Assembly (NCBI GenBank): GCA_010024875.1
Contig: RGFZ01000013.1
Span: 1-63,523 of the forward strand
Reading direction: 5' to 3'
Origin: Oxalobacteraceae bacterium
GTDB lineage: Bacteria; Pseudomonadota; Gammaproteobacteria; Burkholderiales; Burkholderiaceae_D
Length of the DNA: 63,523 bases
Shown here: positions 1,989 to 23,918 of the stretch, piece by piece
Layout: each line of letters starts with the position of its first letter
Position numbering within the stretch: the first letter of the stretch is position 1
Notes under the pieces: model-generated
What the model saw: the letters and a program-made list of their open reading frames with translations, nothing else
What the model was told of the DNA's origin: nothing
Database searches by the model: none
Position numbers and translations under genes: made by a program

Positions 1989-3848
1989 TCAGAGCGGGCG
2001 CACTGATCCCGGCACGATGGTCGCGCCGAATTCCCGCTTGAGCGTCTGTACAAAAGGATCGTTTTCCATCGCCAGCTCGGCGGCCTGCTGTCTTGCGGCC
2101 TGCTCGGCGACGCTGGCCGCATGCGCGGTATGGTTGACTGCACCGATGCGGGTATGCAGATTGACTTTTTTACCGAGGTGCTTGCCGACGGCGGCTGCCA
2201 GCTTGTCGGCACTGCCGGCTGACAGTAAGGTCTCCACAGGTACGCGCAAGTGCAGCTGAATCACGGCATCATCTTGTTCGATCGCCAGCAGTTCGCTCTG
2301 TGTGGCGAGTTGTTGCGCGACGCCGCGCAGCTTGAGTTGTATGACCAGTTGCGGCCAGTCGATCGCAATGTCGCTCTTGACATGGTCAGCGGGCGTCTCT
2401 GCGGTCAGTGCGGGCGATTCAGTTTTTTTTTGAGCGCTGTCGGACTCGGACTCGCTCAGTGCATCAATGGCTGTTTCTGCCGTTGGGAACGGCAGAAGTA
2501 CATCCTCTTGCATGCTCGGATCGTGCGCTGCCTTCACGGGCTTGCTACCGCGCGCTGCCGCCAGTGCGGCCATGGCCGGGCTGAGTGTTTTGGATGATGA
2601 CTTTGGTGGTACCACTGCTGATGCAGGCGGCGGCACCGGAACCGAAGCCGTAGCGACCGATACGGATGCCACTGCCTTGGCCACAGGTACCGTGGCTGGC
2701 TTTGTGGCAGCAGCGTTGGCGGAGGTCGCCCTGGTGTCACCGGACGAATGCAACGGCGCAAACGACAACATGCGTAGCAGCGTCATGGTGAAACCTGCGT
2801 ACTCATCGGGTGCCAGCCCGAGTTCGTTACGACCATGCACGGCAATCTGATAGAACAGCTGTATATCTTCAGCGGCAAACCTTGACGCGAGTCGCAGCAC
2901 GTCTTCGCGCTCGGGTAAATCGTCGGGTATGGCTGCGGGTACCGATTGTGCAATCGCAATGCGATTCAGTAGCGTGCCCAGGTCTTGCAATGCAGCGCTC
3001 CATGACAGGCTGCGCGATGCCATGTCGTCTGCCACCGCAAGCAGTGCTGCGCCCTCCTGATCGGCAAGCGCATCAAGCAAGCGTACAAGAAAGCTATGGT
3101 CGAGCGCGCCCAGCATGCCCTGCACTGAATCGAGTGTGACCTTGCCAGCGGAATAAGCGATTGCCTGATCGGTCAGCGACAGCGCGTCGCGCATTGAGCC
3201 CTGCGCACCTTGTGCCAGCAGGCGCAATGCGGGCGTATCGAAGCTGATCTGCTCTTGCGACAGAATGTGTTCGAGATGCGAGACGATGTGCGCCGGCGGC
3301 ATCTGCTTCAGATTGAACTGCAGACAGCGCGAGAGCACGGTGACGGGTATCTTTTGCGGATCGGTGGTGGCAAGGATGAATTTCACATACTCGGGCGGCT
3401 CTTCCAGCGTCTTGAGCATCGCATTGAATGCGTAGCTCGTCAGCATGTGGACCTCATCGATCATGTAGACCTTGAAGCGAGCATTCGACGGCGCATAGAT
3501 CGCCTGCTCCAGCAGCTGCGTCATCTCGTCGACACTGCGATTGGATGCGGCATCCATCTCTATGTAGTCGACGAAGCGGCCGGCATCGATCGCCGTGCAG
3601 GCCTCGCAAACGCCGCAGGGGCTGGCGGTAATATCGCCCTGCCCGTCCGCGCCCTGACAGTTCAGGGATTTGGCGAGTATGCGCGACAGCGTCGTCTTGC
3701 CAACACCGCGCGTGCCCGTGAACAGATACGCATGATGCAGCCGCTTCTGCTCCAACGCATGCGTGAGCGCTCGCACGACGTGATCCTGTCCGACCAGGCT
3801 GTCGAAATTCCGGGGGCGGTACTTGCGGGCTAGAACCTGATAGGACAT
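1989..3848 (-). CDS. dnaX: DNA polymerase III subunits tau/gamma
   Basis: The clamp-loader ATPase of the replicase. I set the start at MSYQVLARKYRP (ATG at 3848), the family's normal N-terminus, rather than the upstream in-frame codon at 3878; this gives 619 residues. Seen are Walker A GTRGVGKT (45-52), the zinc ligands C64, C78, C81 and C84, Walker B ending in DEVH (131-134) and the sensor LSRC. After about residue 365 comes an Ala/Pro/Val-rich linker, then the tau-specific C-terminus. A run of nine A at plus positions 2423-2431 (residues 473-476) lies in the linker. A -1 shift there reads AAC TGA, giving a gamma-like product of about 476 residues. Confidence 0.96.
   Translation of the reverse strand: MSYQVLARKYRPRNFDSLVGQDHVVRALTHALEQKRLHHAYLFTGTRGVGKTTLSRILAKSLNCQGADGQGDITASPCGVCEACTAIDAGRFVDYIEMDAASNRSVDEMTQLLEQAIYAPSNARFKVYMIDEVHMLTSYAFNAMLKTLEEPPEYVKFILATTDPQKIPVTVLSRCLQFNLKQMPPAHIVSHLEHILSQEQISFDTPALRLLAQGAQGSMRDALSLTDQAIAYSAGKVTLDSVQGMLGALDHSFLVRLLDALADQEGAALLAVADDMASRSLSWSAALQDLGTLLNRIAIAQSVPAAIPDDLPEREDVLRLASRFAAEDIQLFYQIAVHGRNELGLAPDEYAGFTMTLLRMLSFAPLHSSGDTRATSANAAATKPATVPVAKAVASVSVATASVPVPPPASAVVPPKSSSKTLSPAMAALAAARGSKPVKAAHDPSMQEDVLLPFPTAETAIDALSESESDSAQKKTESPALTAETPADHVKSDIAIDWPQLVIQLKLRGVAQQLATQSELLAIEQDDAVIQLHLRVPVETLLSAGSADKLAAAVGKHLGKKVNLHTRIGAVNHTAHAASVAEQAARQQAAELAMENDPFVQTLKREFGATIVPGSVRPL
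2421..2435 (-). promoter_or_regulatory. Candidate programmed frameshift site in dnaX
   Basis: In the dnaX frame the codons are GCT CAA AAA AAA ACT GAA. The nine-A run contains the heptamer A AAA AAA. After a -1 slip the next codons are AAC and then TGA, so termination is immediate. This is the layout by which Escherichia coli makes gamma. Nine-A runs also support transcript slippage in Thermus dnaX. I could not see a strong downstream stem-loop or an upstream Shine-Dalgarno-like stimulator, so either mechanism is possible. Confidence 0.7.
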
Positions 3849-3956
3849 GCCGGTCGGTGAGAAGGTCAAGACGGGCATTTTACCCGACGGGCAGCATCAG
3901 ACAGACATGCGTGTCAGCGCTCGGCAAAGGGGGAGAAACATGACGAGAAAACGAGA

Positions 3957-4052
3957 GGCGAGCCTTGTCTGCGGCACTTGCGGGAAATGGCTGTGGCTGC
4001 TTCGTTCCCGACCTGACCAGGTTGACCATGCCACAATGCGCAGGGGCCCGCC
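3957..4052 (-). ncRNA. ffs: 4.5S RNA of the signal recognition particle
   Basis: The RNA partner of Ffh in co-translational membrane targeting. The diagnostic apical region is GGTCAGGTCGGGAACGAAGC followed by AGCC: a GGAA tetraloop closed by CG pairs, with the asymmetric internal loop after it. The ends pair: GGCGGGCC at 4052-4045 with GGCTCGCC at 3964-3957. Further in, CTGCG pairs with CGCAG and GGCA with TGCC. About 96 nt is a normal short bacterial size. It lies directly upstream of dnaX, a frequent place for it. The exact ends are inferred from the pairing. Confidence 0.93.
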
Positions 4053-15623: not shown

Positions 15624-16109
15624 CTAGCGATTCTCTCGGGTGGCCGGCACGGGCTGACGTTCCAGGTCGATCTCGTCGATCGCATCGCGGAACTCGGCCA
15701 CATCTTCGAAGCTACGGTAGACCGACGCGAAGCGTATGTAGGCGATCTTGTCGAGGCGCTTGAGCTCGCGCATGACGAGCTCGCCAATCTGCCCGGAGTT
15801 GATCTCGCGCTCGCCCAAGGAGAGCAGCCGCTCTTCAATGCGATGAATGGCCGCATCGACCGCATCGGCAGATACGGGTCGCTTGCGCAAGGCCAGCATC
15901 AGGCTACCCCTGAGCTTGGCATGCTCGAATTCGGAACGGCTGCCATTTTTCTTGACGATGACAGGCATCGTCAGCTCGATGCGCTCATAGGTCGTGAAAC
16001 GCTTGTCACACTGATTGCAGCGACGGCGACGACGGATACTGTCCCCTTCGTCGGACGCCCGAGTATCCATCACTTGAGTATCCTCGTGCTGGCAGTACGG
16101 ACAACGCAT
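15624..16109 (-). CDS. nrdR: Transcriptional repressor NrdR
   Basis: ATP/dATP-sensing repressor of ribonucleotide reductase genes. It has 161 residues. The N-terminal zinc ribbon has CPYC (3-6) and CNQC (31-34), with the basic stretch [18 protein letters not shown] between and after. The ATP-cone follows, with [17 protein letters not shown] and [16 protein letters not shown]. It lies 25 bases after glyA on the same strand, the common glyA-nrdR pairing. Confidence 0.96.
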
Positions 16110-16134: not shown

Positions 16135-17331
16135 TTAGGCTTGGTAGACCGGGAAAGCGTCGGTGAGCTTTTTCACTTCGGCCTTCACGCGCTCGATGTT
16201 GGCCGCATCATGCGGATGGTCGAGCACATCAGCGATCAGATGACCCACCTTGGCCGCTTCGGCTTCCTTGAAACCACGCGTCGTCATCGCCGGGCTGCCC
16301 AGACGAATGCCGGACGTGACAAAAGGCTTCTCCGGATCATTCGGTATGCCGTTCTTGTTGCAGGTGATGTGCGCTGAACCCAGAATCGCCTCAGCCTCTT
16401 TGCCGGTGAGCTTCTTCGGTCGCAGATCGACCAGCATCACATGTGATTCGGTGCGACCCGACACAATGCGCAGGCCACGCTCGATCAGGGCCTTGGCCAG
16501 TGCATCTGCATTCTTGACCACCTGCTGCTGATACGCCTTGAATTCGGGCGTCAGCGCTTCTTTGAAAGCTACCGCTTTCGCCGCAATCACGTGCATCAGC
16601 GGGCCGCCCTGCAGACCGGGGAAGATCGCGCTGTTGATCTTCTTGGCGATCTCTTCGTCATTCATCAGGATGATGCCGCCGCGCGGGCCGCGCAAACTCT
16701 TGTGCGCGATCAGGCCCGAGTAATGCGCCATGTCCACCAGGAACAAGGCACCGATATCTTTAGCCACCTTGGCAAAGCGCGCCCAGTCGATCTTCAGCGC
16801 ATACGCCGACGCGCCCGCAATGATCAGCTTGGGACGGCTCTCGTGGGCGACACGCTCCATCTGATCGTAATCAATCTCTTCTTTCGCATCGAGACCATAT
16901 GAGACCACCTTGAACCACTTGCCCGACATGTTCAGCGCCATGCCATGCGTCAGATGTCCACCCTCGGCCAGCGACATGCCCATGATGGTGTCGCCCGGTT
17001 GCAAAAAGGCCAGCATGACGGCCTGGTTCGCTTGCGAGCCCGAGTTGGCCTGCACGTTCGCAAATTTTGCGCCGTAGAGTTCTTTCAATCGGTCGATCGC
17101 GAGCTGCTCGGCGATGTCGACGAATTCGCAACCCCCGTAATAGCGCTTGCCGGGATAGCCTTCCGCGTATTTGTTGGTCAGCTGCGATCCCTGCGCTTCC
17201 ATCACGGCAGGCGATGCGTAGTTCTCGGAGGCGATCAGCTCAATGTGGTCTTGCTGACGCTGGTTTTCTTTCTGGATGGCGGCCCACAACTCGGGGTCGA
17301 TGAGGGCGACGGTATGGTCTTTCGAAAACAT
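16135..17331 (-). CDS. glyA: Serine hydroxymethyltransferase with an internal gap before the PLP lysine
   Basis: Interconverts serine and glycine with tetrahydrofolate. The start is set at ATG 17331 ([10 protein letters not shown]), with AGGAG eight bases upstream, giving 398 residues against the usual 415-417. Matching motifs run throughout: [78 protein letters not shown] and [12 protein letters not shown]. Between D200/H203 and the lysine, family members have about 18 residues including YPNPVP and a run of Thr. Here GLIA joins directly to [10 protein letters not shown], putting the PLP lysine at 211 instead of about 229. The frame is kept. Activity is doubtful. Confidence 0.93.
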
Positions 17332-17393: not shown

Positions 17394-17516
17394 CGGGCAG
17401 CCTCGGTTGTTGCCATCGGGCTGCCCAGGCGTACGGCGGTAGAAAATCTCGCGCTTCATGGTGGTGACCCACCCCTTCGGCCATGACAGATCTGAAGTTT
17501 CGCCAGTCACGCGAGG
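17394..17516 (-). promoter_or_regulatory. Probable ZTP (pfl-motif) riboswitch in the glyA leader
   Basis: On the minus strand CTCGCGTGACTGGCGAAA (from 17515) matches the conserved 5' part of the pfl motif. Its CTCGCG pairs with CGCGAG at 17453-17448. Downstream comes CCGCC-GTAC-GCCTGGGCA (17438-17422), close to the conserved CCGCCTGGGCA with a four-base insertion. It leads into a hairpin GGGCAGCC/GGCTGCCC (17426-17419 with 17402-17395). The ZTP aptamer is known upstream of glyA and other one-carbon genes. No T-run follows, so control of translation seems likelier than termination. Confidence 0.72.
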
Positions 17517-17645
17517 CAAAATGGTGAGAAATTCTAGAGGACGAGCGCTCTTTGAGCAAGAACGACGAGCGAAGATTGGGAGGGTTTCCGCTAAAATGCA
17601 GCGGTCTCGCGTCAGCGCCCGCTTACCACCTCAGAAAGAACACCA

Positions 17646-23720: not shown

Positions 23721-23731
23721 TTTGCTCTTTC

Positions 23732-23807
23732 GGGTCGTTAGCTCAGCTGGTAGAGCAGCGGACTTTTAATCCGTTGGTCGCAAGTTCGAATCTTGCACGA
23801 CCTACCA
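23732..23807 (+). tRNA. tRNA-Lys (anticodon TTT)
   Basis: It is 76 nt with an encoded CCA. The acceptor arm GGGTCGT pairs with ACGACCT through a G-T at the first position. The D arm is GCTCAGCTGGTAGAGC, the anticodon arm is CGGAC-TTTTAAT-CCG with anticodon TTT, and the T arm contains GTTCGAATC. It has its own strong promoter and a terminator 11 bases downstream. Confidence 0.97.
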
Positions 23808-23818
23808 AATAAAAAAAA

Positions 23819-23847
23819 CGCCGCAGTGTTCACACTGCGGCGTTTTT
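23819..23847 (+). terminator. Terminator after tRNA-Lys, probably bidirectional
   Basis: CGCCGCAGTG (23819-23828) pairs perfectly with CACTGCGGCG (23833-23842) around TTCA. Five T follow, and eight A precede the stem. The A-run makes it a usable terminator for the leftward transporter gene too. Confidence 0.92.
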
Positions 23848-23918
23848 GTTTTGGCCCATGTCAATTGACTGATTCGCCAGCGGCCAGAGCGTTGTTGTCT
23901 CGTCAACATCACGGAAAT

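Follow-up and report, generated by a model that had tools for sequence, protein, structure and literature searches.

A 54-nucleotide in-frame deletion beside the active-site lysine of an nrdR-linked glyA gene: very probably a very young null allele or an assembly error in a genome with a second glyA

Serine hydroxymethyltransferase (SHMT) is described as binding PLP in a pocket to which one subunit contributes five loops, including the TTHKTL stretch that bears the PLP lysine, and the other subunit two, the active sites being shared across the dimer (PMC6294363). The same paper describes the suppression of glyA loss in E. coli by multicopy LtaE. Concerted evolution is described for duplicated prokaryotic genes such as tuf, and its partial-gene form has been called interesting to investigate (PMC6053082). 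The words "glyA" and "hydroxymethyltransferase" are absent from the main text of that paper, and no report of glyA gene conversion was found there or in one literature query for glyA and gene conversion; a paper on ntrX conversion mentions a point change in glyA (PMC9937504).

The glyA gene analyzed here lies in a window of 63,523 nucleotides, by which we mean the whole stretch of DNA from an Oxalobacteraceae bacterium that was analyzed. Its product matches PF00464 (profile search, 507.6 bits, cut-off 27) and NCBIfam PRK00011 (600.2 bits, cut-off 335), and its nearest relatives in the PDB are the SHMTs of Burkholderia cenocepacia (4mso, 4n0w and 4ot8). Compared with these and with GlyA of E. 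coli (1dfo), the protein matches over the whole length, with 59–72% identity in the structural alignment, and keeps the PLP lysine in the HK[ST]L motif expected of an SHMT, but it lacks the YPNPVP loop and the Thr-run strand preceding this lysine. Since nrdR adjoins the gene, it is the nrdR-linked glyA of the genus, which we call glyA1; its sequence also places it there, the protein being 92–93% identical to the glyA1 products of G001, G007 and G020. The features of the locus are as follows.

15624..16109, minus strand: nrdR, the downstream neighbour of glyA1 (NCBIfam TIGR00244, 199.9 bits, cut-off 124.65)
16138..17331, minus strand: glyA (glyA1), serine hydroxymethyltransferase, 398 aa without the stop codon, which is at 16135-16137
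16699..16701, minus strand: codon of the retained PLP-binding lysine (Lys211), by alignment with SHMT of known structure
16704..16705, minus strand: junction of the deletion, where 54 nt (18 codons) are missing between Ala209 and His210, position uncertain by at most 2 nt
17416..17520, minus strand: ZMP/ZTP riboswitch upstream of glyA1 (Rfam RF01750, 60.5 bits, gathering score 39)

The ZMP/ZTP riboswitch scored above the gathering score at one of six relatives' glyA1 loci (L119, L120, L128, L146, L148 and L153), namely at L153 of G019, and at none of the seven relatives' glyA2 loci scanned.

The reading frame of glyA1 starts with the ATG at 17331 and runs without interruption to the stop codon at 16135; this ATG is aligned with the family start and gives 398 residues, and the listed ORF, starting at an upstream GTG, has 404. 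Full-length glyA genes of genus relatives encode about 415 residues (1245-nt matches). The coding strand at the junction reads GGC CTG ATC GCG / CAC AAG AGT TTG CGC, with Ala209 at 16707-16705, His210 at 16704-16702 and the PLP lysine at 16701-16699. The first-pass annotation had reported an intact frame that lost 18 codons between GLIA and the lysine motif while retaining the lysine, and its coordinates, length and count all proved correct.

In genus relatives, the space between GLIA and the lysine motif is filled with 18 residues of the GGVYPNPVPFADVVTSTT type, and in the alignment all relatives' copies covering the site, both glyA1 and glyA2, carry them. A motif count over 209 loci yielded 110 context strings: 108 strings, some of which may be one gene cut differently, have 18 residues and an Asp-Lys spacing of 29; the other two have no residues there and a spacing of 11, and both are the window's own glyA1, one of them shortened by the locus end. 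The motif was not found at 65 of the 209 loci, nearly always because the site was not covered; at L013, L072 and L106 it was missed by one or two residues and the 18-residue segment is present. At nine of the 18 lost columns, the 31 aligned relatives all have the same residue. The genus comparison covered 20 relatives, with one genome per species and some glyA pieces ending short of the site. At the family level, 392 genomes were searched with the junction pattern, which accepts only GL[IV]A followed directly by HK[ST]L-like codons; it matched glyA in the window's own genome and in none of the 391 others, this set being a sample of a larger group in which some assemblies may lack the glyA site. 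Three matches outside the window's genome lie in sequences that do not look like SHMT. A shortened glyA common to relatives was thus found neither among the loci compared nor in the 391 other family genomes.

Removal of the same 18 codons from 112 DNA contexts left a microhomology at the junction of 0 nt in 61 contexts and 2 nt in 51. Hence no repeat collapse explains the deletion, and slippage at a direct repeat was rejected on the same grounds. A pattern search for the missing segment elsewhere in the window's assembly gave no exact matches, and with one mismatch allowed it gave six matches, the same number as for the reversed control.

The deletion would remove a loop and a core beta-strand positioning the PLP lysine, so that productive cofactor binding would be lost. 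In the AlphaFold model of an intact control, the glyA2 product of a relative (L033), a strand at residues 220–224 stands just before the lysine and the block pLDDT over residues 201–240 is 82–93; the model of the window protein has no counterpart to this strand and a pLDDT below 50 at residues 203–217. The overall pLDDT is 69.2 for the window protein and 75.4 for the control, and the pTM is 0.66 and 0.79, respectively, both models having further weak stretches and shallow input alignments (32 rows for the window, 31 for L033). The fold of the window protein is still matched to SHMT by structural alignment. The earlier suggestion of a badly impaired enzyme is thus supported by the alignment, with its nine invariant lost columns, and by the lost strand in the model. 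The element that is gone appears to be required for catalysis; we expect the glyA1 product to be inactive, and as an enzyme it is probably dead.

The rest of the gene bears no sign of decay. The window protein has the expected residue at all 189 columns outside the gap at which 31 relatives show no variation. This is normal rather than special: in the leave-one-out analysis, the 11 other rows printed likewise had zero violations of the 189 columns each. It differs at one of the 258 columns outside the gap that are at least 90% conserved. The dN/dS ratios of the window glyA1 against four relatives are 0.037–0.049; the ratio is 0.044 for the window and G007 and also 0.044 for the intact G007 and G020. 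The relaxed constraint expected of a pseudogene is thus not seen outside the gap (dN/dS about 0.04), and, judged by these substitutions, a long history of relaxed selection at glyA1 is unlikely. The 189 retained residues together with the normal dN/dS suggest that the lesion is either very young or artefactual. A new role for the protein, one of the possibilities raised initially, found no support, the remainder of the gene being under ordinary purifying selection.

Good support was obtained for another of the initial suggestions, a second glyA. In 16 of 20 genus relatives, the match tables contain fragments of two glyA genes with different surroundings; a single glyA was seen in the other four (G010, G011, G012 and G014). 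One copy adjoins nrdR in 19 of 20 relatives, and in G002, where this was not seen, the contig breaks first. In the window's genome, the search for a second gene succeeded in part: both flanks of glyA2 were found, together with its first 21 codons at the end of a contig, but no second complete glyA is assembled, as judged by protein search, PF00464 and the missing-loop pattern. Contig C169 ends 64 nt into glyA2 (MLQKVASALGAFPNSQTIEQA, preceded by AGGAGG), and contig C32 starts within the aminotransferase gene following glyA2, so the body of glyA2 falls into the gap between them. We infer that this glyA2 is intact. Between the end of C169 and the window there is at most a 10-nt match attributable to chance; hence the break of C169 differs from the repeat break seen in relatives (see below).

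The neighbours of glyA2 were read from ORFs in relatives, family scans being made on the contigs of the window's genome only. The gene following glyA2 is an aminotransferase gene beginning MAGRNFLFVPGPTN in G002, G003, G018, G019 and G020, and in G003, G019 and G020 it is followed in turn by a 2-hydroxyacid dehydrogenase gene. On the other side, formate-THF ligase and threonine aldolase are found in G019 and in the window's genome, and different genes in G003 and G018. In the window's genome, positions 330-6947 of C169 (L165) carry formate-THF ligase, threonine aldolase, 2-oxo-tetronate isomerase and L-threonate dehydrogenase on one side of glyA2, and positions 1-1948 of C32 (L166) carry, on the opposite side, an aminotransferase of the Sga or BhcA type together with a 2-hydroxyacid dehydrogenase. 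The best match of this aminotransferase is BhcA, below the cut-off (514.1 against 650, with a truncated query), and the best score of the dehydrogenase likewise falls short of the cut-off (345 against 448); the two may be Sga and hydroxypyruvate reductase, respectively. At positions 2517-3473 of C32, an open frame with repeated units that look ankyrin-like by eye runs off the contig end, which is perhaps why the contig stops.

The two glyA copies of several relatives are partly homogenised. In seven relatives, contigs end within glyA, and nine contig-end pairs from these, chosen because both contigs stop at the same glyA residue, share 119, 121, 127 or 141 identical bases each. Lengths of 119–141 are typical assembler k-mers. 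Within the genomes of G002, G006, G017 and G018, the two copies are identical at 81–94% of third positions in the middle of the gene and at 36–53% at its ends (the C end of G002 glyA1 was left out of the end comparison), whereas five ortholog pairs among G006, G017 and G018 have 62–73% mid-gene. In the mid-gene tree, the two copies of G006, G017 and G018 pair as sisters within each genome (support 0.85–1.00; 81–90% of third positions), and the trees of both gene ends separate them. In G002, 94% of 101 third positions are identical mid-gene and glyA1 is too short for the tree. The G020 copies are alike over the whole length (79–92% of third positions) and those of G007 weakly alike (55–68%); no conversion was seen in G003, G004, G008 and G015 (24–48%), ten genomes being compared in all.

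Paralogs closer to each other than to orthologs, at silent sites and within a bounded tract, were thus found in G006, G017 and G018, and in G002 by identity. The sequence comparison indicates that glyA1 and glyA2 are homogenised mid-gene by gene conversion in several species of the genus. Paralogs more alike than orthologs, silent sites included, are common to this case and to the concerted evolution of tuf and other duplicated prokaryotic genes; the glyA case, in contrast, is restricted to the middle of the gene and to some species, the focus of that paper being full-length cases (PMC6053082). The ectopic conversion in G002, G006, G017 and G018 (L115-L117, L124-L127, L146-L149) is centred on the active-site region, and the deletion in the window falls within the tract converted in relatives.

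Taken together, glyA1 of the window is very probably an ordinary nrdR-linked SHMT gene in which the 54-nt in-frame deletion is either a very young null allele or an assembly error. On either reading SHMT activity would be supplied by glyA2, in the case of an artefact by both copies. An assembly error would lie at a locus made hard to assemble by a second glyA, which in several relatives is partly homogenised with the first. Several observations fit this explanation less well: the body of glyA2 is unseen in the window's genome; C169 breaks unlike the contigs of relatives, and C32 starts inside the next gene; simple assembly collapse needs a repeat, and there is none at the junction; the lack of decay also fits a shortened enzyme still under selection; and one fifth of the relatives show only one glyA, four others showing no conversion.

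An artefact of assembly or consensus, likewise among the initial suggestions and still plausible, in which the true glyA1 is intact and the deletion came from co-assembled reads of glyA1 and glyA2 or of a strain variant, has a probability just short of even. The assembly is a draft of 243 contigs with 96.7% completeness and 3.19% contamination. The glyA gap stands alone among the window ORFs compared in exceeding 7 aa against two or more relatives, and it lies in a gene whose second copy is unassembled; of the other gaps, one of 23 aa in ORF 1992-3896 is seen against G003 only (70% identity), and the rest are up to 7 aa. This comparison drew on a single contig from each of G007, G003 and G008 and on a small number of G019 pieces, covered mainly positions 1-12.4 kb and 15.5-23.6 kb of the window, and contained antisense shadow ORFs; it does not support a generally bad contig. 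An artefact could also account for the contigs of seven relatives that break in glyA with shared ends, and for the absence of molecular decay in glyA1. It fits less well with a junction without a repeat, with a contig that continues through intact neighbours, and with the end of C169, which does not overlap glyA1. Moreover, de Bruijn assemblers output only k-mers found in reads, which we counted against an artefact.

Two RNA genes were identified elsewhere in the window. The first accounts for a region that matches places near the contig ends of several relatives, and the initial assignment of positions 23729-23853 as a dispersed repeat was overturned.

23732-23807: tRNA-Lys (TTT)
3954-4052, minus strand: bacterial small SRP RNA (Rfam RF00169)

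A real and young null allele, in which an illegitimate 54-nt deletion in glyA1 is tolerated through glyA2 and possibly also through threonine aldolase, is a substantial possibility at clearly less than an even chance; conversion from glyA2 could erase such a deletion again. The second copy in most relatives and the glyA2 flanks in the window's genome agree with it, as do the threonine aldolase gene on C169, a junction unlike repeat collapse and the intact neighbours on the contig. The deletion was, however, found in none of the other family genomes searched, and the lack of relaxed evolution means that it must be very recent.

A shortened SHMT that remains functional or has acquired a new catalytic role is very unlikely, and glyA1 probably does not represent a new type of enzyme. 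The open frame, the conserved residues and the riboswitch in place would suit such an enzyme, but the strand and the Thr run beside the PLP lysine are gone, the Asp-Lys spacing is 11 instead of the 29 of the 108 other contexts matched, the AlphaFold model is disordered at the active site, and no relative searched shares the form. It is highly improbable that a real deletion has become fixed and that glyA1 persists as a non-catalytic partner of GlyA2. In such a case, the active sites being shared across the dimer, a dead glyA1 subunit that lacks its own lysine pocket and has loops 1 and 7 could still complete the site of its GlyA2 partner and tune activity, and the ZTP riboswitch would control how many dead subunits are made per live one.

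When an otherwise perfect gene of a draft assembly shows a striking loss in its active site, an unassembled paralog should be looked for first; taken by itself, the present finding is a warning to this effect. Gene conversion of glyA, a by-product of this analysis more interesting than the deletion, explains contig breaks within glyA in at least seven draft genomes of the genus. If confirmed in complete genomes, the two-copy system would provide an example of partial-gene concerted evolution in a metabolic enzyme, and it merits a study of its own.
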